The translations under genes and the position numbers were made by a program. Below, one piece after another: positions 5,655 through 38,098 of a DNA stretch of 64,000 bases. The notes beneath the pieces are model-generated. The model did not search any database and had not been told where the DNA came from. It saw only the letters and a program-made list of their open reading frames with translations. This DNA comes from Ceratodon purpureus (lineage: Eukaryota; Streptophyta; Bryopsida; Pseudoditrichales; Ditrichaceae): contig CM026426.1 in assembly GCA_014871385.1 (NCBI GenBank), forward strand, positions 108,720,457 through 108,784,456, given 5' to 3'. Every line of letters begins with the position of its first letter. Within the stretch, counting starts at the first letter, position 1.

Positions 5655-6253
5655 GTGTCTAAGTAAGCTAATGACCCTCCTCACAATAAAGTACACTATA
5701 GAACTTCAGCTCTGCTTATATACTGATCAATCCGAACTAATGGTGAACAACTCCTCCTTTCATAATATTAATGATCACTGACATGTACCTCTAAAACTGG
5801 TCACTGACATCCTACAACTAAAGATATATGAAATTTGAATTAAAGTTCATGTGCAAATAAATATAATTAAAATTCATCTGGAAATCAATATAATCTTCAC
5901 TTAAATAGAATTGATGACAAAGGGTCATCCATCACTGAGGCCTGGCCATGAGTCCTAGAACGAAAGACGGCTACAGCTAATCCTAGATATGCTGTCTTCC
6001 ACAAAAAATCAAGCCACGATCTAAAGTGCTACTGACATGAGTTAATATAAGTGTACTTAAATTCTCATTACGGCGCCAGGGTTAACTACCTCTATCACTT
6101 ATATTCTAACTAACTTCCGTTACTCGTGATTCAGAATTATTACCTAAGGTACAACTAGATCTGTATATAATCATTGTACTCGAAGTCATCAGTCTCTCAT
6201 TCTTCTGCACCTTCAGTCGTTTAGTGTCTTATCCCCACACTCTACGTTTCACA
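5655..6253. promoter_or_regulatory. Bidirectional promoter between gene C and transposase, left copy
   Basis: A 599-bp AT-rich spacer separates the two divergent start codons. Toward the transposase there is GTATATAA at about 6162-6169, then TTCTGCACCTTCAGTCG about 50 bp before the ATG. Toward gene C there is TATATAAG at about 5715-5722. The right copy has the same arrangement with a TATA box and TTCTGCACTTTGTCG at the equivalent place, so the TTCTGCAC..GTCG block is a conserved candidate initiator or regulatory core. Confidence 0.55.
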
Positions 6254-10723: not shown

Positions 10724-11099
10724 AATCGAGGATCGGTACAAAACAGAAGTGTCCCTTACACAAAACGAAAAGAATGCGGAAATGAAGAAGACATTCCTCT
10801 CACCTTGAACTTAAATATCTTAAGGCATTGACTTGGCGCCCTAAGATCACGGACATGGCACCAGACACCAACATTCATCAGACGGGATGGGATCAATAAC
10901 AAGCAGAAATTTACAGGAATGCGTCAAATTTACTATCCACCACCAAAAATATTTAAAACAATAAAACGGTAATAGGATCATAATGTCATATATTTCCCTG
11001 AATATTTGAAAAAATTCCACGGTCATAGGTCTAAAATTCAGCTTTTATTAGGTAACAGTCGGGGAATATTCTCATAATATTCCAGTTTTCTAATTTTAG

Positions 11100-11223
11100 T
11101 GTCTAATTTTAGTAAATACAGTACTGTTTTTAGATTTCAGACTTCATTTTCTGCTCTCCGCTCTCCAAATCTCCGCTCTCTGCTCTCCGCTCTCCGCTCT
11201 CCGCTCGCATACAAGTCTCCCTC
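11100..11223. repeat. Terminal repeat of the left giant element
   Basis: Read on the minus strand from 11223, the end has GAGGGAGACTTGTATGCGAG, then GCGGAGAGC units repeated about six times, then an A/T-rich part. The right element has the same structure at 20415-20510 (plus) and 36365-36450 (minus). The outermost 16 bases align position for position among all three ends. Confidence 0.85.
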
Positions 11224-15399: not shown

Positions 15400-16915
15400 T
15401 CTGTAGTCAATGCATCACATGTACAAGTTCAGTTCTCTAAATGGTGGACGGGATTATATTAGAGAGCGTTAGTGTACGACAATTGCAACATTATATACAT
15501 ATGAACTGCACTTAGTTAACGAGACCCTGTATTTCACCATCGAGACATACTTGTCTTCAACATGTTGCAGGATAGGTTACTACATTTTGCGTAGAATAGT
15601 AAAAACTTGTAAACCCTTCCTAAATAGATCATGTCCCAATCAGTGTCTAACGTTGTTGTCCGTTGTTTATCCCCAGCAACTTACATAGTGAAATGTCGTT
15701 GAACAAAGAAATAGAATGAACTTGACCGAGCCTTGACTATTGTAGGTTACAAAACGTGCGATGGCATAGCAGTCACGTAGTAATTCACTTGAGCAAAAAT
15801 AAGTATATGTCTATAATCATACCTGGATTCCATAATTTTGGACGATTGTTTCACTGTTTTGGGACACGTACTTCAAAGATCGATAACACTCTCACGTAAA
15901 GCGTAACACATTTGCGCCCCTACTTGGAAACCTATCCTCCGTGGTCCACACTACACAAGGACAAGGGAAACGGGTAAGCATTTAGAAGAGTTTGAAATAC
16001 GAATATTCAACATAGAACAGTCGGAAAAGGAAATTAATATATGTGTAAGCAAACCATGTGTAGGCCGGGTGAAGACAGTATTGCATCACGGAGTAGTGCA
16101 AACAACCATTCAAACCCTAAACCTCCTGAATATGTTTTTTCTTGTAAAAAACTGGACTAAATTGAAGTGCAGAAGTTGAAGAGTTGAAATTACCTTAGTG
16201 CAGCATACTGAATTTGGAATGGAACGAAGCGTCAATTGGGAAGTGTTGGAGATGGGCAGAACCGACTGAGTCAACCGATTACACCTTCAAAGTATACCTA
16301 GCCGTTCATATTGTCGTGGAACCGTCAAGAAACAAAGGTGACGTTAGAATTGTAATCGAGATTTATGAATACATAATTATGTGTACACAATTCAGAAGCT
16401 ATCGTACATAGTCACATACCGAATTTACAAAGGCAAAAACTCGGGTTCTACCTCAACGCAGTTGAGCCGCATCCATTGCAACGACAACAGGTTGTTCACA
16501 AGAACGCCTCCAAAATATACTCGCTCGGTGTGCGCGTAAAGATTGTAGGGGAGTCTGCAAATTTATAGGAACATGGTCATTCGAAAACCGCACTCAGGAT
16601 ATGAAGTCTCCAAACCTAGTCATTGGAACCCAGAATTGCACAACAGAGACGTTGGCGTACATAAAACTTTCTATATGGAACTAGACTTGACTTGTAGTTA
16701 AGCGTTCCGGGTAAACCTAAAACTCTTCGTCAAGGCATAGAGTAGGGCTGAAGGCGTTGTCAAAATATATCAGAATTGGAAGCGACTCAACTTGGATTAT
16801 TGTTTACGGGTACCATAGGATAGTTCATATTCACGTATACCGTATGTTGTGTTTGAAGTTGGATCGCTTACAGCTTATATGCTATATGACTGTACTTTTG
16901 TGTGTGGATTAGAAC
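15400..16915. other. Intergenic region between divergent CACTA genes
   Basis: No convincing gene. It contains the shared promoter region of Tnp2 (minus) and the TnpA-like gene (plus). 16040-16170 is about 80-85% similar to 37530-37680, an internal repeat of the CACTA element. Confidence 0.6.
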
Positions 16916-20404: not shown

Positions 20405-20414
20405 GGTAAATCTA
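20405..20414. repeat. 10-bp target site duplication, left side of complete giant element
   Basis: GGTAAATCTA immediately precedes the terminal GAGGGTAGC and is repeated exactly at 36451-36460. A duplication of 8-11 bp is the norm for Mutator-superfamily insertions. Confidence 0.9.
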
Positions 20415-20510
20415 GAGGGTAGCTTGTATGTGAGCGGTGAGCGGAGAGCGGAGAGCAGAGATTTTCTGCTCTTAGAGCGGAAAATGGAGAGCAGATTCTA
20501 AAAATGGAAT
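20415..20510. repeat. Left terminal inverted repeat of the complete giant element
   Basis: GAGGGTAGCTTGTATGTGAG followed by CGGTGAGCGG and AGAGCGG/AGAGCAG units and an AT-rich zone with TCTAAAAATGGA. It is inverted relative to 36365-36450 and has the same layout as the end at 11223. Similarity to the 11-kb end extends well beyond the GAGCGG part (TTTTAGTAAA and GAATATT blocks). Confidence 0.88.
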
Positions 20511-20704
20511 TTTTTTTACTAAAAATAGAAAAAAGATGGTAAAAGAGAATCTTTTCGAATATTCCTAGGAATATTTCTTGAATGTGGGATACTTTCCGGG
20601 TTCTGTTAAAGGGTTTTTTGGGTCTACCCACCAAGTACTGGTCTTGAAATTGTGCGGCAGGGCGTGAATGACGGGGTCTTTTGTGATTTCACTGGAATAA
20701 ATGG

Positions 20705-21235
20705 ATGACCCTGGGGCCTTTGCTCTCTCACTCTCGTTTGTTAGCTGGTGGAATGTTCAGGGTTTGGGGTGGGGTGCATACCGTTTTTGCCACGGAGGAA
20801 GTCGGTTTTGGGGTTGTATCCCTAGGTGATGAGGGTGGGCCATTTGAACCTTTTCTTGAAGATGAGGGTGACGAGTTGTTGCTGAAGTCACGACCATCGC
20901 CTCCTAAACCGGTAGAAGGTGGACATAGCGGTGGGCTTGATGTGGTGCCATCTACTGTTACGGGGGCGCTCGACAAATCGCCCACTAAGGAGGTTGAGTC
21001 CAAGACCCTTCCAAGCCATGCTTATTCCAGGGTTGGCAGAATTCCTCCGGGGACTTATTCGAGATCCGCAATCTGTGGACGTGTGGGGTCCAGTCCAGTC
21101 ATTAAAATTCCTCGGTCTGGTCGAGGTTCTTCCTCAGGTCCACGTCTGGATGAATGCGTCATCCGTCCGATGGAAACTAAAAGTAGCTATGTAGAAATAT
21201 CAAAAGGACGGCCAAGCCGCATCCGATTCATGTGA
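20705..21235 (+). CDS. Accessory gene A, right copy (176 aa)
   Basis: Same unknown family as the gene at 10280-10723: VVSLGDEGGPFEPF near the start, LPSHAYSRVGRIPPGTYSR in the middle and a basic tail KGRPSRIRFM. ATG 20705 adds about 34 residues before the conserved block, so an internal start at the GMF Met is possible. It is convergent with the transposase, 221 bp between stop codons, and about 290 bp inside the transposon end. The frame is open, unlike the other genes of this copy. Function unknown; role inferred only from conservation and position. Confidence 0.75.
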   Translation: MTLGPLLSHSRLLAGGMFRVWGGVHTVFATEEVGFGVVSLGDEGGPFEPFLEDEGDELLLKSRPSPPKPVEGGHSGGLDVVPSTVTGALDKSPTKEVESKTLPSHAYSRVGRIPPGTYSRSAICGRVGSSPVIKIPRSGRGSSSGPRLDECVIRPMETKSSYVEISKGRPSRIRFM

Positions 21236-21456
21236 TGTAATATTCTTTCAGAAAGTGCATGGTAATAAAGTAATTATTTGTGGAATAAGAATGGTGGACA
21301 AGATGTGCGACGAAAATTACTCGGCCAGGTGTCACTTTTTTTTAACATTAATGGCAAATCAAATCATGTATTACCGAGTCATAGTCAGACTCGATTAAAA
21401 ACAAAAGCAGTGTATCACTGCGACGTCGTGATGGTCTAAATTAGAAAGGGCAAATT

Positions 21457-24400
21457 CTAGACTGTCTCGTAGGGCTCCGCCAAGGGGTGTGTCAAGATTC
21501 CACTCTCGAGGAGTAACTTCACTTCGTTGAAGCTAAAGGTCGGTGCATGGATGAAAAGTTCCACATCCGGGTCACGCAGGCATACCTTTAAGAGGACGTA
21601 ATACATTTGCTTGCAGTATGTAAATTGAACCTTCCCACGGAACTTCGTCATTGTTTTCTTGAATGCTGGGCATGTGCAGCCGGGGAGGGAGCTGATGGTG
21701 ATCTGGTATTTCGTCACATTGGGAGGAGCCCCGGAGTCTATCGCGATGATGCAGCCGTGGCCGGGATGAGGAATCATGGTGATAGACCGCAGTCGTGCTT
21801 TGAGGGAGTCGGAGGAGGCCATGGACAGCCTCTGCTGCGGATTGGATCGAGTCGCGGTCCGCTTGACAATCTTCCCATCTCTCTTTCCAGGGTACCGGTC
21901 AGCCTCTGCCGGCATTGGAACCGAGTCTAGGTTTCGCGGAGGGGGGTCGGAGGTGAAGAGCCTCCTAGGCGAGACTGGTTTCTTCTGTGGGAGCTGAAAC
22001 CCTGCCTCCTCCAAGGCAAGAATCTCACAGTCTTTCAGGTTCGTCCCAAGTTTCACAGGCCATACTGTTGGGATGGGTGGAAATCCTTCCTTTCTCGATA
22101 AATCGTACCAGTTCACCCATTTGCGCCTTGTCCCCTTCACGCACCTCTCAATGTCGTCGGGGCAGAAGAAGAAGTCTTTGGATATGTCGAGGTTCCTCCT
22201 TCTGCTGTGCCATACACTGCTGTAGGTCGGGACAGGGGTGGGCTTAGCTCCCCAGACAATCCTCTCTGTGCATTTCTTATTGGTGACGGCCCTCTGCGCC
22301 CAACAGCACTTTGCGGAAGTCTTTGGCAGTCGAGCAATGTGCCACTGCTTCACGTTCACTCTGGTCTCCTCCACAGCCGAGACGTGACGCACGCCTCCTT
22401 TGCTGAAGGGTGAAGCGATGACGGAATCCATCTGAGGCGATGGATGATGAGCAGCTTCAACCTCGCGGTCGCCTTCCTCGACGATGATCGGCATGGGAGC
22501 CACGCAAGCTCTGACAGGTCTGAGACTGACTCGAGGATGCGAAAAGTTTACCTTATCTCGCCTATGCGACTCTTCCTTAGCGCCAAGAGGCAAGTCGGGC
22601 TTGCGCTTCCGCAAACCAAACACCTCCTCCCCTAGCAGATGTGGGACACGCGTACAAAACTCATCGGCGCCAGGCATGTCCAGCATGGGGTCCTCTAGAA
22701 CCTTTGGATCGCCCGTTTTCTTCGCCCTACGTTCTGCGGATTGTAGCCTCAGCTCCTTCTTGCTGGGGCCAGTACCCCCCACGTCGCCCTTTAGGTACTG
22801 GTAATAATTCACAACCTGTAGAAAAGCACGGATAAAGTCGTCGACGGTGGCGACTTACAGATCACTGCCATTATTGCCGGTTGCTTGAAGCCACTTGTTG
22901 TGAACCGTCTCCGCGAGGTTGCAGGACGGCATCTCCGCGAGTTCCGCCTCCGAGAATTTCTGAGATCCAACAACGGATGAACGATTAATGAGTCACTACG
23001 ATGAGCATGTACGGGGAAAGAGAAAACAACAGTGGGTGGCGTGGTTACCTCGGTCATGAACCCACCCCATTGGCGATATCGATAATGCCAGAATGAGAGC
23101 CATAAGTAAAGTTTCGATAAGGCAGATTCGGACACTGCCCCCGCAGATGCCCACCAAGCCCTTATCCCATGATAAAGAGCATCGGCCTCCGCCATTGATC
23201 TTGCCTTCCTGTATTGCTGACACATCTTTTTGTGTTGATCCCACAACTCTTCGGCGACGTATTTCTCGGTATGATTCACCATAGACTGGGTCCAATGAAA
23301 TTGACAGGTCCTCTCCCGGTCCTCCATTTGATCTTCCTTGTTGCCATTGCCGTATACCACCCGGACCGCATTCCAATTAGCCTGGGCGCTGTCCGCCATG
23401 AAGCCCTTGAAGTTCGGCTTCTCCACGCCGTGTCTCTTCATGACTGCGTTGAGGTTCTTCCAGAACACCATCTGGGCTTCGGCGTCTTCAGATTGCATGT
23501 CGCAGCAGGCGATCGTCATAACCCGGCAGTATGTGGAGTCATACACGTGGCATGCCATGGTTGTCCAATTTCGCACGCGCTTGACGTGGTCAAACATAAT
23601 CCACGAAAGCTCCAGATCCCCCGTCGGCTGCATTCTCTTCACAAGATCGACACCACTCGCGGGCCCAAGCTCGGACATTTTGAACACGTAGACCTTGTCA
23701 AATTCTGACCCTTGGCCAGGGAACATGTTGTTCTGTACGAAATCCCATGTGCTGAGTCCCCGCAATTTTGTTCTGCTGTCCATCACCCCGAAACGTCTGA
23801 GGTACCTAAAAGTAACGACCTTGTTCCGAATGTTAGGCGACGCCATATCTTTGCAGCTATCGAGCACCGGGTAAAGCTCTTGAACGGTGAGCGTCTTAGG
23901 TGGATCGTCCTCCGATCGTAATAAAAAACTACCAATCAGGTCCTTGCTGGCCTCTAGTACAACGGCGCTCTTCGTAGCCTTGGGCGTGTTCTCGATCTGG
24001 TTTTCTATCAAACTACTTATCTCGACCTTAATGTCTCGGTAGTCTCCCACCTTGACAGGGTGGTTGTGGGATCCTACGTGGATGCACGCCCGTGTGCTAT
24101 TGCCCTTGCCCGAAACATAAAATATCCTTGCTCTACAAGTGGCAACGCAGACGGGAGGTTCCTTACATACCTTGCAGACCAAAGTGGATTCCTTCGGAGC
24201 CTCTTCACCCACATCAAACGCCTGCAACGTGCATCCGTCAAATTCGGTCTCATTCACGTCAAAGATGCGATGGTCGCGCTCAAGGTACCCGCAGTCCTTG
24301 TTCTCGCACCGCAAATGGCCCGCACATGAAGACGACCGGAAAGAGAGGCCCATATTGTTAGAGATGTTGGTCGTGATCGTCTTCGTCCACACGTGCCCAT

Positions 24401-25214
24401 CGTACCTCTTATCCATGCCCTGCATGGACTTTGCGGCTGATCGTGAGGCAGAGGATCCGACAAGTGGTAGTTCGAAGATGACGTCGCCGTTGAACTCCGG
24501 CGGCAGATACTCCACTCTCTCATGTCGGATGGAGTCGTAGTCTAACTTCTTCAGGAGGTTCTTCTTACCCGGCCGCGCAGTAAGCTTCTTCAACAGCGAT
24601 ACAATACTGACGGACTCGTCCAAAGAAGGGGGCATTGCCATGAGATCCGAAGCGCGAGTGTCCACAGCCGCCTCGGGACGGACAGGTTCTCTGGCGGGTA
24701 TATATCCGGCTGACTTTCGAGTCCGCGGGCTTCCGTCATCGTCAGAGGAGAGATTGATAACCGGGGTATCTAAGCCCGGCTCGACTTTTACTTTGGCAAG
24801 GAGAGTCGTCTCTGAGCCAGAGTCGGTCTTCAACTTCACGTCCACCGCTCCTGGTGTCTGGATGGTGCAAGTAGAGGACCGTCTGGGGGTCAGGATCTCG
24901 GTGGACGCAGCCATCTGGAAATCTGTGAGACCGTAGACTCTAAACCTACGAGGCGTGAGCCTCCACATCTTACAATCCCTCTCGTCCACAAATGAGACCT
25001 GGCCTAGTGTATGTGTGATCTCTCCAGTGAGCTCATCACAAATCTCCTCCTCAACGCTAATGGAGTCCTCTTGATACTGGAACCTAAGACTAAGACGCTG
25101 ACATGACACAAGAGCGTACCCATCATCATCTACCCGAAATGTAAGCGGAATTCCAACGCCATGTGCGTAAAGAAAAACGGAACCTAGGAACTGAGCCGGG
25201 ACAGGTAGCGCCAT
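21457..25214 (-). pseudogene. MULE-type transposase, right copy, two exons with a premature stop
   Basis: Exon 1 is 25214-23049 (722 codons, donor GAG|GTAACC), exon 2 is 22959-21457 (acceptor GATCTCAG). It aligns along its whole length with the left copy: YAHGVGIPLTF, WTKTITTNIS, GFMADSAQANWNAV, CQFHWTQSMVN and the SWIM finger GCTCPAFKKTM...YCKQMYYVL. In the SWIM finger the final metal ligand reads C-K-Q-M where the left copy has C-K-H-V, so the expected His is lost. A TAA at 22855-22857 replaces the Tyr codon found at the same place in the left copy (DLYVATVDD). Skipping it by an alternative 43-bp intron would create another stop. Two independent lesions indicate an inactive copy. Confidence 0.88.
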
Positions 25215-25731
25215 GGCGTAGGGAGTTCAGAAAGAGCGTCACAATCGACAAAGTGCAGAATTGAGAGGGTTGTTGCAGCATTTTCCACTGCATTTATACG
25301 TTTGTATTTGCTAATCTCAACTTGTCATAAGAGAGACGAATGTTGAAGAGACGATGAATACCTGACGGACTAAAAGGGGATGATGACTGGGTTTAGGGGC
25401 CCCCTATGTTTACTTGAAAGGACGATCATGCGACAAATCACCAGCCACTAGAAGGCTCTATAATAAGGACCAGCCGTCTCTTGATTGCCACTGAATATAA
25501 TTAGGGCTGGTACACCGTGTCAGAGTAAATTCCCTGACATGGGAAAAAGGGGAGGGATCTCAGCCGCCAATTCTAGGAATTTTGAGTTAAGGAAATCTTT
25601 ATATGGAAGGGCGCCAAAACAGTTAGAAGCGTCAAAAATAACAGTACTCATCCTGACGAGAGATATATTAAAGCAATGAGTGGCATTCTCCGGGATGTTT
25701 AGTGTGGTGAGAGAGCAGAATAGTGTCACAG
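25215..25731. promoter_or_regulatory. Bidirectional promoter between transposase and gene C, right copy
   Basis: On minus, CGTATAAATG (plus 25291-25300) lies about 80 bp upstream of the transposase ATG and is followed by TTCTGCACTTTGTCG, similar to the left copy's TTCTGCACCTTCAGTCG. On plus, CTCTATAATAAGG at about 25455-25467 may serve gene C, about 270 bp upstream of its ATG. Confidence 0.5.
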
Positions 25732-26686
25732 ATGCATGTCGATGATTCAACTGAAGTGGTCGCCACTCCTGTGAGAGAGAGAAAGAGAAAGAGGAAGGGG
25801 AGAGACAAGCTGTTTTCAAATTCGAAGGAGCTGACAGCTTCGAGGATGAGACAGGCTGAGGAACGGAGGCGACGTGTTGAGGGGTTTGGCGGGACCGTGA
25901 AGGCATTGAGTAAGGACTTCGCAAAACTTCCCGTCATAGCAGTACCTCGAGTAGCAAAGGGGGGCGGGTTGTGTGAGACATCGCCATCGCAGTGTGTGAC
26001 GCCGCTCCAGCAATCAATTCCCCTCACCATACCTGAGTGCTTAGAGGTACGTGTGTTAATTGTAGACATCATTAGTTTGTGCGCCCTTGCTCTTGCGGCC
26101 ATGTATAAGAAGGTAGAGAAGCTCCATGCTTAGTCTCTTTGTGCCCCCTCGTGGTGTTCTTAGCCTAAGCCTTGCTGTGCCTGGCTTCCACCTCGTTGCG
26201 GTTTTTGTGTGTGGGAGCGTAGTACAGTCAGAGTTTTGTTTAGAGTGTTGTTGTTAGAGTTTGTAGGGTGCGGGTCAGTCTACATAGTTTGTTGCCATGT
26301 TAAATCCTAAGTATGGAGGGAAGGTGAAGAAGGGTAGGTCGAAGAAGGGCCATGGGGAGGAGAGGTCGTCCGAGAATGAGAAGTCACCAGGAAGTGAGAA
26401 GAAGGATAGAAAGAAGAGAGCTGGAGATGAGAGGTCATCAGAAAGTGAAAGGAAAAGTAAGAAGAGGCCAAGTAGGCAGGAGCGTCCTGAAAAGCACAAG
26501 AAGACTAAGAAGGTTAGAATTGCGGAGTCCGCTGTCCAGCTAGAGCAGGTAAGATAGTACTCCCTGAAGTAAGGGTGGGAAAAGTTATTAGGGCATCGTC
26601 AGAGCGTCCAGTTCCACTGGATGTATCTAGGGTTTTAGAAAGGGTTCAACTCAGCTGACTAGTTAGGTTGCGACACATTGTTGCAG

Positions 26687-27918
26687 GAAGAAGGAGAGGA
26701 GGAGGTGCACGAGACGGCTATGGAGGAGACGCAGAAGGCGGCTGTAGAAGAGACGCAGGTCGTGGCTGCTGGGCAGAGGCAAGGAGGGGAGGGGTAGGAC
26801 GAGAGCATGGACCTGCAGGCGACGAAGCAGTCTAAACGGGAGGAACTGGCATGCGATGTCAACAAGGAGACGGCGATGGCCGAGGGCCCGAACGATGGTG
26901 CCGAGCATACATTGGAGAGTACACCTTCACCGAAGAGGGCGAAGACAGCCGAGGTGGAGACGGAAGAGAAAGATCCCTTGGTGGATGAAGAGGAGGACGA
27001 TGCAGAGACGCCGCCGGCTAAGCTGACATGGCCGCGGGTTAAGAAGGGGGAGGAGTTGCCGGAAAACCCTCTAGGAAAGGACGAGGGTGTGACACCAGCG
27101 GAGATAGAGGCTCGGATGATCAAGGAGTTCGAGAACGACACCTTTGTTGCAGTCAACCGGAGTCGGAAACTGCCGATAGAGAAGTTCTCGAGGTTGAGAA
27201 TTCCTTTATGCCGCATGGTTAGTATGCCCGAAGTCAGGCCAGTGTTGGAGTCCAAGGTCTTACGGTTGCAGAGCGAGTTCCGGTCCGGGTATAGAGTAGG
27301 GTCAGCAGTGTTCTATGTGGCTCTGACCGATACGAAAGGGAGGGAGAAGCTGGTTACAGATGAAATGGAGTTGGGCATGGGATCAGTTGGATAATGAATT
27401 CGACTTAGAATTGAATTCTGACCCCGATTTGAAGCCACTTCGCGGAAAGATGTTTTTCATTTACGATGGCAATCACCGCTACACGGCTTGGAAGCGCTAC
27501 ATCGACGAAGCGAAGATGGGAAACATGGACTGGCATCGCCTTCACGGTATGCGAGATTGCTTGGTGCTTGAGATCCATAAGAATCTGTATCCAAGTATTC
27601 TCAGGGCCATGCATTCAGTTAACAAGTAAGTACCATTCCGAGGCTAGATCTTAAAGTTTTTACTCAATGCTTGGTCGTCGATTTCATTAGATGAAGTTCG
27701 TGATATCTAATATCGTACGACGTGACAGGTCAAATGAGCAGGCGCATGTCAAGACAAATGTCTTGCACCAGATCAAGATGGTGCACAAGTATGGGCTGCT
27801 ACCCATAACGTATTTTGAGAATATCCTCAGCAAGGAAGAGTACGTGAAGGAGAAGACAAAGTCGACCAGTACTTGGTATCCATTGTCTTCAGAGACAATG
27901 GTCAACCACCTCTTCTCG
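26687..27918 (+). pseudogene. ParB/sulfiredoxin-like region of gene C, right copy
   Basis: The acidic linker (about 26687-27100) is followed by RIPLCRMVSMPEVRP, then GKMFFIYDGNHRYTAWKRYI (motif coded at 27440-27490). The arrangement matches ParB/Srx folds, in which a G-x-H/N-H-R loop forms the nucleotide or DNA phosphate site. Compared with the left copy, 11 nt are missing after the VTDE codons, shifting the frame so that KWSWAWDQ is read in another frame. The next exon (27729-27918) encodes KTNVLHQIKMVHKYGLLPIT, of unknown role. Confidence 0.75.
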
Positions 27919-28261
27919 GTAAATCCCTTAAATGTTTTCACTCCTGTCTGTTTTATAGAGTATGTCGGAATAATTAAATAAACTAACTTTCTTGGTTTAA
28001 TGCGGCGGGAAGAGATAGCAGGTGCAGGCGAGGAAGCATGCAATCACTACAAGCAGACGACGCCGCTGAACAAGCAAACAGGGGAGCGTTTACGTGAGCT
28101 CATTTTCAATCAGATTCTAAAGAAAAAAGAAGCCCTCAACAAGCTTTTTAGCAAGCTCCAAGCCGTTGCAAATCCTAAGAACGAGAAGGGATTTATTGAA
28201 GAGGTATGTAGTTTCTAGACTTTCTTTACTTAGAATTCTGCAAGTAAGTTTGTTTTTCCTT

Positions 28262-29180
28262 ATTGAGGCCCGGTTGAGGCCCTTCATTCTTCTACCCTGA
28301 CCGTGCCTTAGGTCTGGTTAGGCACCGAGAGACCCCTCCCAGCCTCAAGGGCGCGGTCAAGGAACCGGCCCCAAGGGGCCTTAACGTGCCCCTCTTGGGC
28401 TGAGAGGGGCCTGTAAGGCCCCTTGGGGCCGGTTTCCCGACCGCGCCCATGAGGCCCGGAGGGGTCTCTCGGTGCCGAGAAGCCCCTCCCGGCCTCATGG
28501 GCGCGGTCGGGTTTCCAGCCCGAAGGGGCCGTAACGGGCCCCTCTTGGGCTGAGAGGGGCCAAATAAGGCCCCTTCGGGCCGGAAACCCGACTGCGCCCA
28601 TGAGGCCCGGAGTGGTCTCTCGGTGCCGAGAAGCCCCTCCGGGCCTCACCGGCGCGGTCGGGTTCCCGGCCCCAAGGGGCCTATAGAGGCCCCTCTTGGG
28701 CTCAAAGGGGCCCGTTAAGGCCCCTTCGGGCCGGAAACCCGACCGCGCCTTTGAGGCCCGGAGGGGTCTCTCGGTGCCGAGAAGCCCTTCCCGGCCTCAA
28801 AGGCGCGGTCGGGTTTTCGGCCCGAAGGGGCCTTAACGGGCCCCTCTTAGCCGAAAGGGGGGCTTAAAGGGCCCACCAGGCTAATTAAGAACCCAATTAT
28901 AGAGTTCTTTATGCCTGATGGGCCATTTCGTCCCCTTTTACAATAAAATGGGGCCAGATTTCACCCCTTTGGGCCAGAAACCCGACCGCTCCACTAAGGC
29001 CCGGAAGGGGCTCTCGGTGCCGAGAAGCCCTTAAGGGCCTCGAAGGCGCGGTCGGGTTTCCGGCCCAAAGGGGCCGAAGATGTCGCTAGGTACCAAATCC
29101 CGACCGCGCCTTCGAGGCTGGGAAGGGTCTCTCGGTACCGAGAGCCCCTTTCGGGCCTCAAAGGCGCGGTCGGGTTTCTA
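28262..29180. repeat. GC-rich nested-palindrome tandem array inside a gene C intron
   Basis: Units of about 152 bp alternate two palindromes: GCGCGGTCGGGTTTCCGGCC with its reverse complement around a GGCCCCTCTT core, and GAGGCCCGGAGGGG-TCTCTCGGTGCCGAGAAG-CCCCTCCCGGCCTC. The CTCTCGGTGCCGAG centre recurs near 28467, 28619, 28770, 29008 and 29131 (the last reads CTCTCGGTACCGAG). Diverged units with AT-rich insertion occupy 28860-28970. Spurious minus-strand ORFs (SRHRETPPG repeats) arise from the array. The same TCTCGGTACCGAGA core forms the array at 34985-35345. Confidence 0.92.
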
Positions 29181-29521
29181 GACACTTAGTCAATTTTGGG
29201 TGTTATATTGCTTCTTGATTGTTGCTTTATGAATTAGAAGTTTAGGTAGGATGTGTTTAAATTTCAAATGATGACCAGTAGAACGTTACCGTCCAAATTA
29301 TTTTGACCCTCTAGGGGAGCTGCAAAGACAGGTGGCTCGTCATGTTCGGCATTGATAAGCCATTTGAATTTGCAGATTTCCTGGAAGGATCGATTGTTTT
29401 GGTCAATGACGTTATTAAACGCCTCCAGGAAGTGGTGTAGCTGCAACGGTGGAATGGCCTGATGAGCATTTGTAATGGCATGACTTTGTTTCTTACGTTG
29501 TTTGGGTTTACGTCCTTTCAG

Positions 29522-29970
29522 ATTCGGAACCATTACAACCATCGCCCTAATCAGAAGTGCGAGATGGGGCTAGACAAACTGCAGCTGATTGCGACCACCA
29601 ACGTGAAGGGGATGTATAAAGTGCGTTGGCTGAAGATGTGGAACGGCTCTGATAATACCAGGGCTGCAAACAGTTTTCCGAGGTCTTCGTGCAGTGAGTC
29701 TCAACTTCATGCTTGGCTGCACAAAGCATGCTTCTATGCGCTGCTGGAGGACGAGATCACGGAGAAGATTGAGCCTATCCTGCTGGAATATCCGCTTCCA
29801 GACTGGACTAAGGAAGTGAAGTCCTGGCAAGTGTACCTGAACTACTGAAAGAAGAAGGTTTGGCAAAAAGCTTTTCCAACTGTCTTTGGTGGAAAACATG
29901 CATTCCAGCGGAACGACACTTGGGACTAGGTGCCTAAGGGCAATCTCATCGTCAGCCGGTTTATCTATCG
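29522..29970 (+). pseudogene. Gene C, right copy: exon between ParB-like and methyltransferase-like parts
   Basis: From acceptor CTTTCAG at 29521 the frame encodes IRNHYNHRPNQKCEMGLDKL and ends QVYLNY with TGA (29846-29848). The same frame then continues KKKVWQKAFPTVFGGKHAFQ, a TAG, and VPKGNLIVSRFIYR up to donor CG|GTGAGT. It splices in phase 2 to 30057 (YYKRELMPKK). Continued sensible sequence after both stops argues for nonsense mutations rather than gene ends. No domain recognised. Confidence 0.6.
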
Positions 29971-30056
29971 GTGAGTATCAAAACCTTGGTATGCTCTTGT
30001 TTAGTTTAGTCTTTGCGCAAATGAAGAAATCTGACCCAATTCCCTCTGTTTTATAG

Positions 30057-31985
30057 ATACTACAAGAGGGAGTTGATGCCAAAGAAGGCGATCTCGGAAG
30101 AACCAAATTGGATGGATACCCAAACTGAGCCTGGCCATGACTCGTTCATCTTCATGGAGTATCAGAAGATCACATATCCGTCAGCGCATCTGAAGGAATG
30201 CGGTTGGTACATCGAGTGTGCGAAGACTTTCTGCCCCGCCGAGGAGGAAGATCTGAAGAGACGACTAGGTGTTATTAACGCCACTCCGGAGGAAGTACCT
30301 GACGTCGAAGAGGCTGCACCGGAGGACCCGAAAGTTGGTCAGAGGAGAAAGAAATCGCAGGCGCAGCTAGGAAGACGCGTAGCGCAGAGGACCACTGCCT
30401 CACAAGACGGTGGCACTGGTTCAGTTGCAGGGTCACCCGGTGATAACCGAAGAGGACAACGGTCCCCTAAATCTTCCAAGTCCCGACGTAGACTGGATGG
30501 ACCTTCGCCATCAGGGAACTCTTCTGGGACAGATTTTACTCTGTCTCAGCGTGAGTTTCGACTGGTTGACGAACCGAAGGAGCTGGAGTACGATACTTTC
30601 GATTTGATCATGAATGGTATGATCGATAAATCAATGTTCGATGCGGTGTACAAGTTCGCGAGCCAGTGCAATTCTGATAGAACCTGCCGGGTTTATGGGA
30701 GGAATCAAATGAAGGACGGAATGGTGGACCTTGTAGTAGCCCAGGTTCCGGACAACTCCCCGGTACCAGGCATATCAAGAACGGCCTCGGATGTCCCTAA
30801 GTGGAATGTCCTTCACAAGGACTGGTTCAAGAACACGTTCGTATTTGCCCATAATTTCTTGCACGATGATGGCGCCCTTGTCTTTGTTTACACTGACGAT
30901 AACTCCACAAGAAAGACTATCAGGTCCTTTTGCCCAAGCCTCGGGTTCAAGATGTTTAAGGAGTGGACCGGCTTCAACATACTGCCGCTTCGGGTTCCAT
31001 CTAGGGTTGAGACCACTAACCTTTTTAGGGTGGGTCTTTATGTCAGATGCACTCCGGATCCGAGGCCAGCATCTCTCTCCACCGGCACTCGGAACTCTGC
31101 CTTCACTCTGAAGCCAACTCACAGTGGAGATATTGACGTTGTTAAGGGAAACGTCCTTATGAACTCAGCTAACGCCAAGACTGTGAAGATGAACGGCGAT
31201 CGGCCTTGGCGTGGTCCTAAGGAACTTGATGATTATTTCTGGGGCTGCCTCGTCTTGTCTTGCACATCCCCTGGAGGCATTGTGGTTGACCTCACGGCGG
31301 GAACAGGTATGGCCTTACAGTCTTATGATACTGACTTTCCCGTACTTCCAGATTGTAGTTTGCCTTAATACTAACTCCCTTCTTTGTCGACTTTTGTAGG
31401 CGACTCCATACAAGTCTGTCGCAATCGTGGCCGTCACATTGTCGCTATTGAGGAGGACGAGGACATATTCAAGGAACTTCTTGCTCCGATGAGATCTGAC
31501 TTGGTTCCCCGTGCACCTGCCGGGGGCCATCACAGTGACCAAGAAGACGAAGACGACGACGACAATGACGATGACGAGGTTCCGCCGATCCTGATTGGAG
31601 AAGAAGATCTGGCTTACCATCCTCTGGAAATCCGACCGAAGAGCAGGCAGTGAGTGTAGTCGTCAGGTCTCGTATTAGTCAGAAATTTTGAACATTTTGT
31701 GATTCTACCAGTCAGGCTTAGAATCGTCTTTTCTCAGATATTGCCTTCGTATGCAGAGTGGCCCGAGTTCCCTTGTCGCCGATAGCTACGTTCTTCCGCA
31801 TTCCTGTTTACGCTAAGCAGGCAGCAAGACACCAGGCTGCATTACCTTCCCCAAAGAAACGGAAGACGAAGCGGAGATATGACCAGGCAGTTAAGGAGTA
31901 CCTACATTTGGAGGCTATTGTTGATAATACATTGGATCTAGGTGATGAAGACTCAGACTATTATGAAACATACCGTCGATATTAA
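30057..31985 (+). CDS. Methyltransferase-like C-terminal part of gene C (beta-class N4/N6 fold)
   Basis: The order of motifs is that of permuted beta-class amino-methyltransferases (N6_N4_Mtase): a motif IV-like strand DGMVDLVVAQVPDN (30715-30756), a middle region with WFKNTFVFAHNFLHDDGALV (a typical motif V-like helix and strand), then GGIVVDLTAGTG (31273-31306) joined by splicing to DSIQVCRNRGRHIVAIEEDE, equivalent to the AdoMet-binding FxGxG motif and following G-R-x-x-x-G-I-E strand. The catalytic D/S-P-P-Y is replaced by Q-V-P-D, so catalysis is doubtful. After it come an acidic run (DEDDDDNDDDE) and a basic last exon (KKRKTKRRYDQ). These three exons contain no stop until TAA 31983-31985. 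Confidence 0.7.
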
Positions 31986-32440
31986 GACCAAACTATTTTA
32001 TTGACACCAATATTTACTTAGTTTAAAATTTTGGTATTGTTGTAAAAATTTAAAAATTAAAATTAAAAGAGGAATGGAGGGTTATGTGAATCATGATTAG
32101 TGAACCAATTAGTCATGATTATGTTGGTTACTGTCCTATGTTGTACCATTCCTTGTTGCATAGGTATCGCATTAACCCATCTCTATTGGATTCCATTCTT
32201 CCAATTTTGGAATTCCAATTTCTGAATTTCCCTCCCTCCCTACCACAAAAGTTCTCGTACACCGGGAGACGCCAAACAGTGGAGGGGTAACAATTTAAAA
32301 ATTAAAATAAAATGAGAAGTAGAACCCCTTCTCAAAGAAGAGAAATTACAGATAAAACAGTAAATCAAAAAAAAAAAAAAAAAAAAACAAAAACAGTGAA
32401 AGGTCTTGAATCAAAAAGACACCCAATAGTTAAGATTTAA
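31986..32440. other. 3' flank of gene C
   Basis: AT-rich, with a run of A at about 32368-32387. No gene seen; probably the 3' untranslated region and spacer of the transposon. Confidence 0.5.
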
Positions 32441-33310
32441 AAAAAAAATGAAAAAAATGGAGCCGGGACACCCACTGGAAGAGAGGGACAGGCAGAGGGA
32501 CAGGGAGTGAGGGAGAGGGAGTGAGGGAGAGGGAGAGGGGAGGGAGGGGGAGTGACCGCGAGGGAGAGGGAGAGGGAGAGGGAGAGGGACAGGGAGTGAG
32601 GGAGAGGGAGAGGGACAGGGACAGGGAGTGAGGGAGAGGGAGGGAGAGAGGGACAGGGAGAGGGACCGGGAGTGAGGGAGAGGGAGGGGGAGAGGGAGAG
32701 GGAGAGGGAGAGGGACTGGGACAGGGATTGAGGGAGAGGGAGAGGGAGAGGGAGGGGGAGTGACCGCGAGGGAGAGGGAGAGGGAGAGGGAGAGGGGAGG
32801 GAGGGGGAGTGACCGCGAGGGAGAGGGAGAGGGAGAGGGACAGGGACAGGGAGTGAGGGAGAGGGAGAGGGAGAGGGACAGGGAGTGAGGGAGAGGGAGG
32901 GGGAGAGGGAGAGGGACAGGGACAGGGAGTGAGGGAGAGGGAGGGGGAGTGACCGCGAGGGAGAGGGAGAGGGAGAGGGAGAGGGAGAGGGAGAGGGAGA
33001 GGGAGAGGGAGGGGGAGTGACCGCGAGGGAGAGGGAGAGGGAGAGGGAGAGGGAGGGGGAGTGACCGCGAGGGAGAGGGAGAGGGAGAGGGACAGGGACA
33101 GGGAGTGAGGGAGAGGGAGAGGGAGAGGGAGAGGGAGAGAGGAGGGAGGGGGAGTGACCGCGAGGGAGAGGGAGAGGGAGAGGGAGAGGGAGAGGGACAG
33201 GGACAGGGAGTGAGGGAGAGGGAGAGGGACAGGGATAGGGACAGGGACAAGGAGTGAAGGAGAGGGAGAGGGAGAGGGAGAGGGAGAGGGAGAGGGAGAG
33301 GGAGAGTGAC
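32440..33310. repeat. GA-rich minisatellite (GGGAGA)n with GAGTGACCGCGAG spacers
   Basis: Hundreds of bases of GGGAGAGGGAGAGG interrupted at irregular intervals by GACAGGGAGTGAGGGAG and by GAGGGGGAGTGACCGCGAGG. The long Ser/Pro/Leu-rich open frame on minus and Glu/Arg frames on plus are artefacts of the period. It lies downstream of gene C in the right arm of the giant element. Confidence 0.95.
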
Positions 33311-33579
33311 GGCGCGGGAGAGGGACAGGGGTCCGGAGTCGCGTCGGGACAGGAAGGGGGGGGGGGTAGAGAGGGAGGGTGGGTGGTCTTCCAAAAAGAA
33401 AGTGTGTCTCGGAACTCTCTTAGAGCCAGGAGGGGGGGGCCTGCCGAATCCTACAGAGAGTACTATGTGGGGGAAGGGTTCTTTGTCCCATGTCGCGGCG
33501 GGACTCCCTGTCCCTGCTCGCGGCGGGACTCCTTGTCTCGCGTCGCGGCGACAGTCGGGGCTCGCGGCTGGGGTGTCGG

Positions 33580-33755
33580 GAGTCAGGAGTGGAGAGTCGG
33601 GAGTGGGGACTCGGGTCTCGAGACTCGGGTGTTGGGACTCGAGACTTGGGACTCGGGACTCAAGACTCGGGACTTGGGACTTGGGACTCGGGTCTCGGGA
33701 CTCGGGTCTCGAGACTCGGGTCTCGGGACTCGGGTCTCGGGACTCGTTTAATTTA
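33580..33755. repeat. Minisatellite (GACTCGGGTCTCGG)n
   Basis: Tandem units of about 7 and 14 bp built on GGGACTCGGG / TCTCGAGACTCGGG, many with internal TCGA palindromes. The sequence after 33760 is AT-rich and non-coding. Confidence 0.9.
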
Positions 33756-34066
33756 CAGAACCAAAGCAAAAAGAAGAATAAAAAAATAAAAGTAAAAACA
33801 ATAAAAGTAAAAGGGAAAGAAAAGGAGATTAAAATCAATAAATTAAAGATTAAAATGATCAAAAAATTTAAGATTAAAGACATAACAACTTTAAGGTTGT
33901 CGTTATAACTCGCATTTATAGTACTTACAAAATGGTACACGGTTTACAAAAACCTCTACACAAGGGCGTTGAACCTGCCAAAGAGGCGCCACTCCACTAA
34001 GCAACACGGTACCCCAATAATTTGCACACATTCCTAGCCAATTTCTAGGCTACCACCTACAAATGT

Positions 34067-34576
34067 CTAGGCTACACCATCCTCAACTACATCTGCTTTG
34101 TTTTCCGGGGCTATGATCTCCACCACATCCGTTGCATCTTCCTCCAACTTCTGCCGATAAGCCTGTGCCGCCTCCTGATCTTCGAAGCCCAACCAATGGA
34201 GATGAGAATCGGAATCATAGTCTTCAGCATCATCCATCTGCATATGGACAGTCTCCCCTTCATATTCAACGATGGTGAGAATGAGGGTATCTCCCCTACG
34301 TTCATAAGGCACCCATTGAGCTCCATCAAAATTTCCCTCCTCCTTCGACACCTCCTCCTTCGCCACCTCCACCTTGGGCATCTCCACCTTTGGCACCTCC
34401 ACATTTGGCACCTCCTCCTTGGGCACCTCCACCTTGGGCATCTCCACCTTAGGAACCTCCACCTTCGGCACCTCCACCATAGATCCTCCAGAACTGGATT
34501 CTCCCCTTCCCCTCTTCTTGCCAATAGTCTTCGAGCACTGCCCCTTGGAAGCCACCTTCACCACCTTGCGAACCAT
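34067..34576 (-). CDS. Small acidic protein with VEVPK-type repeats (169 aa), unrecognised
   Basis: The ATG at 34576 opens a basic N-terminus (MVRKVVKVASKGQCSK...KKRGRGESS). It is followed by about eleven degenerate pentapeptides of the form V-E-V/M-P-K (about residues 33-85), then a folded-looking acidic domain with WVPYERRGDTLILTIVEYEG and DYDSDSHLHWLGFEDQEAAQ. A TATA box (ATATAAG on minus, plus 34736-34742) lies 160 bp upstream and the leader is CT-rich. It is located in the right arm of the giant transposon, divergent from 35605-35874. Function unknown; a captured host gene or a transposon-specific gene are both possible. Confidence 0.6.
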   Translation of the reverse strand: MVRKVVKVASKGQCSKTIGKKRGRGESSSGGSMVEVPKVEVPKVEMPKVEVPKEEVPNVEVPKVEMPKVEVAKEEVSKEEGNFDGAQWVPYERRGDTLILTIVEYEGETVHMQMDDAEDYDSDSHLHWLGFEDQEAAQAYRQKLEEDATDVVEIIAPENKADVVEDGVA

Positions 34577-34735
34577 CTTGAGGAGAGGAGAGGAGGAAGG
34601 AAGAGAAGATTGAAGGAGAAGAGAGAAGAAGAGACGGAGAGGAGAGAAGAGTCCGACTCGAGAGGAGAGAGTGACAGAGAGAGTGAGAGAGAGAAGTGAG
34701 GAGAGAAGTGTGAGTTGTGAAGGGGAGTGGGACCC

Positions 34736-34742
34736 CTTATAT
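34736..34742 (-). promoter_or_regulatory. TATA box of the small minus gene
   Basis: GGCCCATATAAGGGG on the minus strand, followed by a CT-rich leader of about 150 nt before ATG 34576. Confidence 0.55.
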
Positions 34743-34984
34743 GGGCCCCACCGAGCCCCCTCGGCCGCCTCCACTTTCTAGGGCTGAGAGGCGGCTCCCT
34801 CCCAACCCTAGGAGAAGCCCTCCCTCCTTAGGGTTGGGAAGGTCGCTCCTTCCCAATCACAAGGAAGGGAGCCCCCTCCTAGGGTTGGAAGGGCGCCACC
34901 CTTCCAACCCTCAAGGGAGGAGAGGAGGCCGCCGCCTTCCTTAGCCGGCGGCCACCGATTTGGGGCGGTGGCCACCCTAAGGCG

Positions 34985-35345
34985 GCCTCGCCCTAAGGGC
35001 TCTCGGTACCGAGAGCCCCCATGGTGATGGGGCTCTCGGTACCGAGGGTCCCTAGTGAGGACTCTCGGTACCGAGAGCCCTATCACCATGGGGCCTCTCG
35101 GTATCGAGGGCCCCCTGCGATCATAGGGCTCCCGGTGCCGAGAGCCCTATGGCCGGGAGGGGCACCCGATACCAAGAGCCCCTTCATAGGGGCTCTCGAT
35201 ACCGAGGGTCCCTCCCGGCAATAGGGCTCTCGGTGCCGAGAGCCCTATGGCCGCAAGGGCCTCCGTGACCGAGAGCCCCTTCATAGGGGCTCTCGGTCAC
35301 GGCCGTCCCTTGCGGCCATAGGGCTCTCGGCACCGAGAGCCCTCT
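34985..35345. repeat. Array of GGCTCTCGGTACCGAGAGCC palindromes
   Basis: About ten copies of a perfect or near-perfect 20-22 bp palindrome (GGCTCTCGGTACCGAGAGCC, with variants GTGCCGAG, GTATCGAG, GTCACGG) spaced 30-35 bp apart between 34998 and 35340. Neighbouring units are also arranged as larger mirror images (CCATGGTGATGGGG, CATAGGGCT). It lies between two divergent TATA-driven small genes. It shares its core with the intron array at 28262-29180. Confidence 0.93.
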
Positions 35346-35470
35346 TCAATGGGGTTCATGGGCACCCCCCTTGATGAAGGGGTCACTCACCCTGACCTAA
35401 CCCTGGGTGAGAGGGGCGCCCCTTGCGGCGCCCCCTTCTCTGACCTAACCCTGGGTGAGAGGGGCGCCCT

Positions 35471-35476
35471 TTATAA
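35471..35476 (+). promoter_or_regulatory. TATA box of the small plus gene
   Basis: GCGCCCTTTATAAGGACGCC is itself a near-palindrome around TTTATAAG. A CT-rich leader of about 125 nt follows before ATG 35605. The arrangement mirrors the promoter of the divergent gene at 34576. Confidence 0.55.
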
Positions 35477-35604
35477 GGACGCCCCTCCTCCCCATTCCTC
35501 ACAATCTCTCCTTCCTCCCTTCTCATACTCTCTCCTTTTTGTGCTCTCCCCTCCTCTCATTCATCTACCTCTTTGCTTTTCTTTCTGTTTTTTTGAACTT
35601 CAAG

Positions 35605-35874
35605 ATGGAGCGGCCGCAGTCGGAGGTGGAGATGAAGAGCTTCTTTGGGGACGTGCGTTTCATCGGAGTCATTCTGGAGATTGAGGCTGAGGTGGAGGAG
35701 TACTCTCGAATTCTGAGGGAGAACATCGTGTACTCCAAAGACCTCACTGCAATTTGGAACTATGAGGCAGGCGTTGCGTTTTCTCGACTTGTTGACATCT
35801 GCAAGTACACCTGGGAGCCGCCATCCGCAGAGCTAACCCGTATCCGGGGTTCTTCTAGATTTAGCTTGGCTTAG
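35605..35874 (+). CDS. Small protein (89 aa), unrecognised
   Basis: MERPQSEVEMKSFFGDVRFI starts an acidic, mainly helical-looking protein (ILEIEAEVEEYSRILRENIV) ending RIRGSSRFSLA and TAG. The good TATA box and CT-rich leader support real transcription. It lies 570 bp inside the right terminus of the giant element. No family recognised. Confidence 0.5.
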   Translation: MERPQSEVEMKSFFGDVRFIGVILEIEAEVEEYSRILRENIVYSKDLTAIWNYEAGVAFSRLVDICKYTWEPPSAELTRIRGSSRFSLA

Positions 35875-36364
35875 CTTTGGTGTAGCTAGTAATTAAAGAC
35901 CAGATTTGTCCTAATTGTGCTAGCGCCGGTCGGCCAATATTATGTACAAGTTTCATCATCGATTAATGGAGAGGCACAATTGAACAAGATGAAAAGCATG
36001 CGGCTTCATTGTTCTGGATCCGCAAGTTTCTTAGCTAATGGCTTAGTATGTGGTGTGTCCATTGCATTTTGTTTTCAGGTTTCAAGCATAATTGGAAGTT
36101 ACTTTTTGTGTTGATTTTGGTGGATGATAATGTGCAAGCAGGTTCAAAGATATGGAAGGGTTTAGATATGGAGGGGATGGTATACAACCTCTAAATCATG
36201 AGGTCATGGTGACGTCAGCCCTAATTTTTGTACTAGAAAGAGAGTATGTCTGCACATGTGACATCTTTTTTTATGTGGATATGTTCACAACACCCAAACC
36301 TAGGGTGACATCTCTTGAAAAATGTTTCAAAATATGAGCTTAAAATGCGCAGTCTAAGGCGACA
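35875..36364. other. Right sub-terminal region of the giant element
   Basis: No gene supported. Short spurious ORFs only; probably 3' untranslated sequence of the small plus gene and spacer up to the terminal repeat. Confidence 0.5.
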
Positions 36365-36450
36365 CTAAACCCTGAACTAGTCCTAAAATTTCCAATTTAC
36401 TGCTCACCGGTTTCTGCTCTCCGCTCTCCGCTCACATACGACCTTTCCCC
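36365..36450. repeat. Right terminal inverted repeat of the complete giant element
   Basis: Contains CTGCTCTCCGCTCTCCGCTC then ACATACGACCTTTCCCC, ending exactly before the second GGTAAATCTA. It is inverted with respect to 20415-20510; the outer 16 bases align without gaps. Confidence 0.88.
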
Positions 36451-36460
36451 GGTAAATCTA
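36451..36460. repeat. 10-bp target site duplication, right side of complete giant element
   Basis: GGTAAATCTA, identical to 20405-20414. Confidence 0.9.
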
Positions 36461-37400: not shown

Positions 37401-38098
37401 GCCTCGAAACTAAAACCTTCAAAGGAAAGGGACGTAGCACTCAAAGAGGTAATGTCGACCATATTTATGCATAGAAAGATTGATTCAAACATATCGTTTA
37501 CCGAAATGAACAACACGTAGTAGTCGGAACAGAAAATTAGTATTTGTTTAATCAAACCATGTGAAGGTTGGGTGAAGACAGTATTGATTCACGGAGTAGA
37601 GCAAACTACTATTGAAACCCTACACCTCCAGAATATGTTTCTAGTTTTTAAAAAGTGGACTGAATACAACTGGCGTTTACCGTAAACAATTTGGGGGCAG
37701 CCTGGGTAAACACGTTTTGTAGATGTCCGATGGGTTCATAGTATGAATTGTCGTTACCCTCTTGCCAGCCTGAAGTGTTTTTTCTACTAAATAGTTTCTA
37801 CATAAACTTACGGTACTTGAGTTTGGCGTTCATTGCAGATTCTACTAGGAAACAGAGTGTGGCTTGGGGACTCACTGGATCCGAGTGTCCGTGTTGGGTC
37901 AAGTACAGTGCTGAACATCGGTGGAGGGGGGATGTTCCACAACCGCTGTATTCCGCCAAACTACGTGCGGGTGAATTTGGAGGAAGTCATCGTCGACTTA
38001 CCTCTCATGATCCTGGTTGAAGAAGCTGACCAAGCGATACTGAAGGACGCGCTGGGGTCGAGTGTCCTTTGGTTCAAAGAATTGGTTTTCTTACGGAA
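37401..38098 (+). CDS. CACTA TnpA-like protein, C-terminal exons
   Basis: A 48-nt exon (37401-37448, ASKLKPSKERDVALKE) lies between TGATGCAG and GAG|GTAATG. A larger exon (37839-38098, after CATTGCAG) encodes ILLGNRVWLGDSLDPSVRVG, then IGGGGMFHNRCIPPNYVRVN and ILKDALGSSVLWFKELVFL. This matches the C-terminal domain of plant CACTA TNPA-like proteins: V-x-L, a gap of about 20, GG..L....C.V.V.., then D-A-x-G-x-x-V-W-x. Between the exons, 37530-37680 repeats the 16040-16170 sequence. The gene is therefore split by the 16-kb insertion between 20414 and 36451. Confidence 0.65.

Follow-up and report, generated by a model that had tools for sequence, protein, structure and literature searches.

Transposon genes that join a ParB-like domain to a DNA N4/N6-methyltransferase (MTase) are known from the Ectocarpus element Sola1-1_Ec32, a Sola1 transposon, and green and red algal cases are cited in the same partial text (PMC12477816). 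In the VANDAL transposons, the accessory genes, VANC among them, diverge faster than the transposase, and element-specific repeated motifs lie partly in introns, according to the excerpted account (PMC5735166). Here we describe a related arrangement in a 64,000-nucleotide stretch of DNA from the moss Ceratodon purpureus (GenBank assembly GCA_014871385.1, contig CM026426.1, positions 108,720,457 to 108,784,456 of the forward strand), called the window below. The window holds two diverged transposons, the left and right elements, and in the right element a single gene carries a ParB/Srx-like and an MTase-like domain. With a probability of roughly 0.45, we read this as the accessory gene of a large Mutator-like transposon, encoding a nucleoside triphosphate (NTP)-dependent, element-specific binder of parS-like sites with a VANC-like role and a noncatalytic MTase-like domain. 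The question addressed is how a transposon protein could distinguish its own copies from the host genome. To our knowledge, such recognition is little understood outside the VANC system.

The anatomy of the element and its gene is very probably as set out here. We placed the right element at 20415 to 36450 (16,036 bp) because short terminal inverted repeats (TIRs) and an exact 10-bp duplication, GGTAAATCTA, bracket that span. A terminal sequence of the type GAGGG..CTTGTATG.GAGCGGAGAGC stands at 20415 on the plus strand and at 11223 on the minus strand, the latter being the left-element end next to orfC, a conserved third open reading frame (ORF); a further copy, GTCGTATGTGAGCGGAGAGC, lies at 36416 to 36442 on the minus strand. 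The gene order is orfC (plus), a two-exon transposase (minus), the ParB-MTase gene (plus), orfD (minus), and orfE (plus). The boundaries, the transposase, and the parts of the ParB-MTase gene are as follows.

20405 to 20414, unstranded: left copy of the target site duplication (TSD), GGTAAATCTA, identical to 36451 to 36460
36451 to 36460, unstranded: right copy of the TSD, GGTAAATCTA, identical to 20405 to 20414
20415 to 20456, plus: left TIR (GAGGGTAGCTTGTATGTGAGCGG...), matching the minus strand at 36416 to 36442 and the left-element end at 11223
36416 to 36450, minus: right TIR, from the terminal-repeat match and the adjoining TSD
21457 to 25226, minus: likely Mutator-like transposase gene, two exons, 65 to 70% amino acid identity to the left-element transposase
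25732 to 26047, plus: candidate first exon with a basic N terminus, open to a GT donor, no homolog confirmation
26300 to 26548, plus: candidate second exon, lysine rich, open to a GT donor, no homolog confirmation
26687 to 27625, plus: ParB/Srx-like domain exon (IPLCRM...DGNHRYTAW...NK), from homologs P0004 to P0011 and a structure model of relatives
27729 to 27918, plus: linker exon (SNEQAHVKTNV...), joining the ParB exon in frame
28022 to 28203, plus: linker exon (AGEEACNHYKQ...), joined out of frame to the previous exon in the right copy
28204 to 29314, plus: intron with five palindromic units, from exon joins and repeat and pattern scans
29315 to 29431, plus: middle exon (GSCKDRWLVMFG...), in-frame joins on both sides
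29522 to 29970, plus: middle exon (GLDKLQLIATTN...) with two stops; P0067, of another family, joins this segment to the MTase part
30057 to 31306, plus: MTase-like exon with the motif IV position VDLVVAQVPDN and then motif I, VVDLTAGTG, from the CcrM profile, the YhdJ alignment, and 62 aligned homologs
31400 to 31649, plus: MTase-like exon after motif I, GRHIVAIEEDEDIF; the joined exons match positions 174 to 217 of the 221 in PF01555
31757 to 31985, plus: last exon, with the basic stretch PKKRKTKRR and a TAA stop, from exon joins

The initial annotation had put the gene beside the transposase of a DNA transposon, and this was borne out: TIRs at 20415 and 36450 and the exact TSD enclose both. 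A location outside the transposon was rejected, since the TSD brackets the gene. Mutator-like elements have TSDs of 8 to 11 bp (partial text of PMC6446971), and that of the right element is an exact 10 bp. Together with this duplication, a D...C-x2-H layout read by eye and a weak SWIM-type C-terminal finger (E 0.014, below the Pfam cut-off and in the left copy only) make it likely that the transposase is Mutator-like. The assignment is short of proven because Pfam models of the Mutator-like DDE transposase domain gave no match at E≤1 in either element. The right-element transposase matched no Pfam family at E≤1 and has an in-frame stop before VATVDDF, so that this copy also looks broken.

The ParB-MTase gene runs from about 25732 to 31985 on the plus strand, with GT-AG exons readable from 26687 to 31985 and two possible 5' exons. 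As first proposed, a G-N-H-R motif (in IYDGNHRYTAW) and a permuted MTase layout, with VDLVVAQVPDN preceding VVDLTAGTG...GRHIVAIEEDED, share a strand in one spliced gene. From the ParB exon to the stop, six of seven exon junctions are in frame, the exception in this copy being 27918/28022. The ParB exon ends at its predicted donor with the residues NK, as do relatives P0004, P0005, P0008, P0010, and P0011; in P0002, a translated stretch occupies the position of the intron that follows directly after the last glycine of motif I. A Pfam scan of the middle exons gave no informative match. The right copy is a pseudogene, because it has three in-frame stops (26795 to 26797, 29846 to 29848, and 29927 to 29929) and a frame break near 27374. 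Relatives P0004 and P0005 read through both the first of these stops and the frame break; from these two and P0001 (94% identical) it follows that less damaged versions of the gene exist. In line with the initial annotation, the ParB part is kept in two diverged elements, and both parts occur in relatives outside the window.

Evidence for a ParB/Srx fold is moderate. A structure model of relatives of the ParB part matches this fold, and the alpha+beta architecture with a G-x-x-R pocket, characteristic of the superfamily, is present. The Pfam ParBc family (PF02195), which the annotation had led us to look for, matched none of nine ParB sequences at E≤1. DUF1015 was matched by two of the nine (best E 0.028), with a weak match for the ParB part in the window (E 0.057), and a ParB-like partition family of PHROGs was matched by one (E 0.28). 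A PHROGs head-protein match of one ParB sequence (E 0.0094) and the single row returned for the ParB profile against PDB sequences (E 1.5) were taken as chance.

For a permuted beta-class N4/N6 MTase fold the evidence is strong. A core profile of four sequences matches CcrM with an E value of 1.7e-6, and the best stretch, 67 to 279, starts at about the end of motif IV. Alignment to Escherichia coli YhdJ by hhalign (E 6.5e-5, probability 64%, 196 columns) places VDLVVAQVPDN opposite VDLIFADPPYN and set the motif register used here. The beta-class order, motif IV and then motif I with its GxG, is present. Interferon-gamma rows that ranked second and third beside CcrM (E 5e-4 and 1e-3) were taken as chance. 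The predicted relationship to N6_N4_Mtase (PF01555) stood in part: the joined exons match with an E value of 2.5e-4, at profile positions 174 to 217 of 221, but the score of 21.5 bits is below the cut-off of 26.7. The MTase exon alone matched no family in Pfam or NCBIfam, and PF01555 was found in 1 of 22 members of a wider, more gapped profile, A7 (E 0.22), probably because most rows are without the last exon. The structure model of this part is poor (mean predicted local distance difference test score, 38.9; the first sequence includes translated intron), and its structural matches are therefore supportive only. Similarity to both folds was found, through the CcrM and YhdJ profiles for the MTase part and through the model of relatives for the ParB part.

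The left element is cut by the start of the window and keeps orfC, transposase, and ParB exon in the same relative order, with the ParB gene divergently oriented to the transposase in both elements.

1 to 561, minus: open ParB-like exon that retains GNHR and is truncated at the window edge, from ORF and homology
1560 to 3816, unstranded: tandem array with a unit of ~213 bp and 10 palindrome sites, from repeat and pattern scans
6110 to 9978, plus: two-exon transposase, both frames free of internal stops, from ORFs
10280 to 10810, minus: orfC homolog, 36% amino acid identity to the right orfC
11153 to 11223, minus: terminal repeat on the orfC side, matching the right-element termini

The left ParB part is unbroken, as the initial annotation had stated, being open from 561 to 1 on the minus strand up to the window edge. 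The MTase part of this copy is outside the window, and statements on the left copy cover the ParB part only. An ORF at 701 to 1150 (minus), in a possible upstream part of the left ParB gene, has YMPTSP repeats, which we take to resemble the C-terminal domain of RNA polymerase II.

Each element also carries its own palindrome, CTCTCGGTACCGAGAG in the right and CTACTGTCGTTGACGACAGTAG in the left, so that both of these diverged elements offer a candidate pair, the ParB-fold protein and the palindrome cluster specific to the element. Within the whole window, the pattern CTCTCGGTRCCGAGAG, with up to two mismatches, is confined to 13 sites of the right element; shuffled sequences gave 0.02 sites on average and never more than 1. 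Of the 13, the large intron of the ParB-MTase gene holds five and a second cluster eight.

28466, 28617, 28768, 29011, and 29129, plus: intron palindromic units, core CTCTCGGTRCCGAGA, from the pattern scan
35000 to 35339, unstranded: second palindrome cluster, eight sites, core CTCTCGGTRCCGAGAG, from the pattern scan

When these two arrays were compared, identity was 85% in the core (a figure partly due to how the sites were chosen), 47% in the flanking 8 bases on either side, and 25% in the outer 16 bases; they have a 16-bp core in common, differ in their long arms, and are otherwise unrelated. The left element has CTACTGTCGTTGACGACAGTAG at 10 places in its 213-bp tandem array, eight exact and two with one mismatch, and the palindrome occurs nowhere else in the window. 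Conservation in that array is 0.991 for the palindrome columns versus 0.892 for the rest; the segment that holds the palindrome ranks 5th of 189, and the top three start 8 to 10 bp upstream. Near-palindromic 16-mers number 12 in the left element (shuffle mean 2.7, largest 7), 15 in the right (4.7, 11), 4 in the stretch between them (2.9, 5), and 14 in the stretch after (7.7, 14), and recurrence of any such 16-mer was seen only inside the elements. The region at 34735 to 35480, which holds the second cluster, lies between the divergent orfD and orfE, each with a TATA-like stretch, in a layout that by eye resembles a shared promoter.

In the reading that we prefer, the protein would enter the nucleus (PKKRKTKRR in the last exon is, we assume, a possible nuclear localization signal), its ParB module would act as an NTP switch, and it would load on palindrome clusters within its own element, in the manner of ParB on parS. 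That the palindromes are the sites of this protein is a tentative proposition, somewhat short of even odds. Once loaded, the protein might mark or shield the element from host silencing or aid transposase assembly, which would be comparable to what VANC does for VANDAL elements in Arabidopsis. Anti-silencing as the outcome is rather unlikely, although the element-specific arrays lend indirect support to the target marking or epigenetic evasion suggested at the outset. Two observations weigh against this reading. Both MTase matches lose strength under profile A7 (CcrM, E 0.37; YhdJ, E 0.009 and probability 4.5%), although the YhdJ alignment leaves the motif IV register unchanged, and two of the intron units fold as near-perfect long hairpins (-76 to -79 kcal/mol, z -11 to -13). 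The hairpins therefore support a structural rival, in which the arrays are hairpin-forming repeats with a role in RNA or recombination rather than protein sites. Good folding was likewise obtained for a piece of the second cluster (z -7.1) and for a single left unit (z -5.6), and double-stranded RNA from the intron could feed small RNAs. However, the right arrays share their core and not their long arms, and the left palindrome is short, and we consider this explanation improbable.

An equally low likelihood attaches to the view that the ParB domain serves transposition or replication of the element as a nicking or NTPase module, with the palindromes unrelated to it. A ParB-methylase, Bce_0392, is reported to nick DNA nonspecifically (partial text of PMC5512222), and ParB folds bind CTP, ATP, or GTP (partial text of PMC12704722). 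This view leaves unexplained both the separate palindrome cluster of each element and the faster divergence of the ParB part. Between the elements, amino acid identity is 68 to 70% for the transposase, 35 to 37% for the ParB part, and 36% for orfC, with third-position differences of 0.57, 0.60 to 0.63, and 0.70, respectively. These values suggest that amino acid divergence in the ParB part and orfC is about double that of the transposase, a factor that is rough because the faster-diverging parts approach saturation and are more difficult to align.

The MTase-like domain bears on a third alternative, active self-methylation. Beta-class amino-MTases are generally defined by a catalytic (D/N/S)PP(Y/F/W) and as a rule need an aromatic residue at the fourth position of DPPY. 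A homolog search returned 61 proteins at E≤10 (sources jgi, ena, lgn, and ncbi [two]); 62 sequences were aligned, with motif IV scorable in 56 (6 gapped) and motif I in 30. These 56 are not independent: most fall into a single close group, from which the window type, the P0041/P0043 type, and moss protein P0069 stand apart as diverged groups. P0069, C. purpureus protein KC19_7G091500, shares the MTase-like segment and reads DFSD at motif IV. At motif IV, position 1 was D in 51 of the 56, position 2 was I, L, V, or F in all, position 3 was P in 45, and position 4 was E, D, K, or N in all; not one had the catalytic tetrapeptide. Motif I had D in 29 of 30 homologs, the first G in 22, and the last G in 28, and in the window and in P0002, both of which include the next exon, an acidic residue follows (IEEDED). 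The motif IV claimed in the initial annotation is replaced, with no aromatic residue at its fourth position in any scorable homolog. Decay of the right copy alone was rejected as the cause, the change being family-wide. We filed the domain as MTase-fold rather than active MTase on this count; as judged from sequence, it has a conserved MTase fold and keeps the S-adenosylmethionine (SAM)-site signature of motif I but lacks the customary catalytic tetrapeptide, and either methylation would have been lost or the chemistry changed.

The self-methylation alternative holds that the protein binds its own element and makes N6-methyladenine (6mA) or N4-methylcytosine (4mC), as suggested for the algal proteins. 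The fold and motif I are kept, the Ectocarpus relative is predicted to make 4mC or 6mA (partial text of PMC12477816), and the replacing motif, D-I/L-P-E/D-N, is strongly conserved, so changed chemistry is possible. Against this, every scorable homolog lacks both the first proline of DPPY and the aromatic residue at position four, and the self-modification first proposed is unlikely for that reason; we give it a lower chance than either of the foregoing alternatives. The published self-methylation suggestion is likewise questioned for the plant family, since the fold is kept and the catalytic motif is not. Under our preferred reading, the domain would no longer methylate bases in the usual way and would serve in binding DNA or SAM or as a partner module.

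Chance capture of a host gene or unrelated neighbor genes by an element that is a mere carrier is very improbable: Mutator-like elements tend to acquire host gene fragments (partial text of PMC6446971), but the ParB gene, transposase, and orfC keep one divergent arrangement in two elements whose transposases are ~30% different, and no relative was found in viral contigs or prokaryote genome contigs at the sensitivity used. More broadly, and doubtfully, these elements may represent a parS-like self-recognition system in eukaryotic transposons, in which an NTP-switched ParB-fold protein with a retired MTase domain, and palindromes evolved per element family and partly placed in the intron of the binder gene, would tell an element's own copies from other genomic DNA to escape silencing or recruit transposase.

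The remaining ORFs of the right element are listed here.

20687 to 21235, plus: orfC, conserved third ORF, 182 amino acids, 36% amino acid identity to 10280 to 10810 (minus) in the left element; no Pfam match at E≤1
34067 to 34777, minus: orfD, 236 amino acids with EVPKVEV repeats, from the ORF scan; no Pfam match above the cut-off
35605 to 35874, plus: orfE, small ORF divergent from orfD, from sequence; no Pfam match

Further tandem arrays, of the GGGAGA and GGGACTCGGGTCTCG types with CTCGAG palindromes, lie at 32481 to 33306 and 33555 to 33746, inside the right element between the ParB-MTase gene and orfD. The window as a whole is plant-like eukaryotic DNA rich in transposable elements, with EnSpm (Transposase_21, E 3.1e-50; DUF4218, E 1.4e-13), Tc5/pogo-type, and copia remains. 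The left element is apparently inserted within a DUF4218-type ORF (11223 to 12028) of an EnSpm/CACTA element that continues as a Transposase_21 ORF at 13126 to 15414 (minus). Tc5/pogo-type transposase pieces lie in two adjacent ORFs at 57308 to 58474 (minus; HTH_Tnp_Tc5, E 8.8e-9; DDE_1, E 1.5e-14), and a 162-bp direct repeat, 80% identical, lies outside both elements at 16008 to 16169 and 37511 to 37672.

In ParABS systems, ParB binds clustered palindromic parS sites and has ParA as its partner. The locus resembles these in encoding a ParB-fold protein beside clustered palindromes of ~16 bp, here predicted sites, and differs in having no recognized helix-turn-helix and palindromes of unrelated sequence; no ParA was found among the ORFs scanned. 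The algal ParB-MTase proteins likewise have both domains in one transposon gene, a likeness drawn from their published description. The host of Sola1-1_Ec32 is a Sola1 element, whereas that of the moss gene is Mutator-like; the Ectocarpus protein is predicted to make 4mC or 6mA, whereas DPPY is lost in the plant family; and palindrome arrays, present here, go unmentioned in the excerpted account (PMC12477816). A transposon-borne ParB-methylase is accordingly not new in kind, having been reported in brown, green, and red algae in that excerpt, but its carriage by a plant Mutator-like element appears to be. In the red alga Asparagopsis taxiformis, 66 genes with the N6_N4_Mtase domain are given, where three other red algae have four to six (partial text of PMC12115072); a transposon-borne family could explain this excess, which is not an explanation stated in that text. 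The bacterial and phage ParB-methylase fusions combine the same two folds in one protein (partial texts of PMC12704722 and PMC5512222), whereas the plant gene has introns, a long middle region, a replaced motif IV, and no ParBc Pfam match. The titles and abstract openings returned by the literature searches described neither ParB-MTase genes in Mutator-like elements nor palindrome arrays with them, and to that extent the Mutator-like host element, the plant-side family, the family-wide loss of DPPY, and the element-specific palindrome arrays appear to be new. VANC carries DUF1985 and DUF287 and no ParB or MTase domain, and its function has been shown, where that of the moss protein is inferred; neither DUF was matched by Pfam in the ParB, middle, MTase, orfC, and orfD pieces, the two candidate 5' exons lying outside that scan. 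The comparison with VANC and VANDAL is, on the features compared, one of analogy and not homology, and the likeness lies in a Mutator-like element with extra genes beside its transposase, a less conserved accessory protein, and repeated motifs in introns and other noncoding parts (partial text of PMC5735166).

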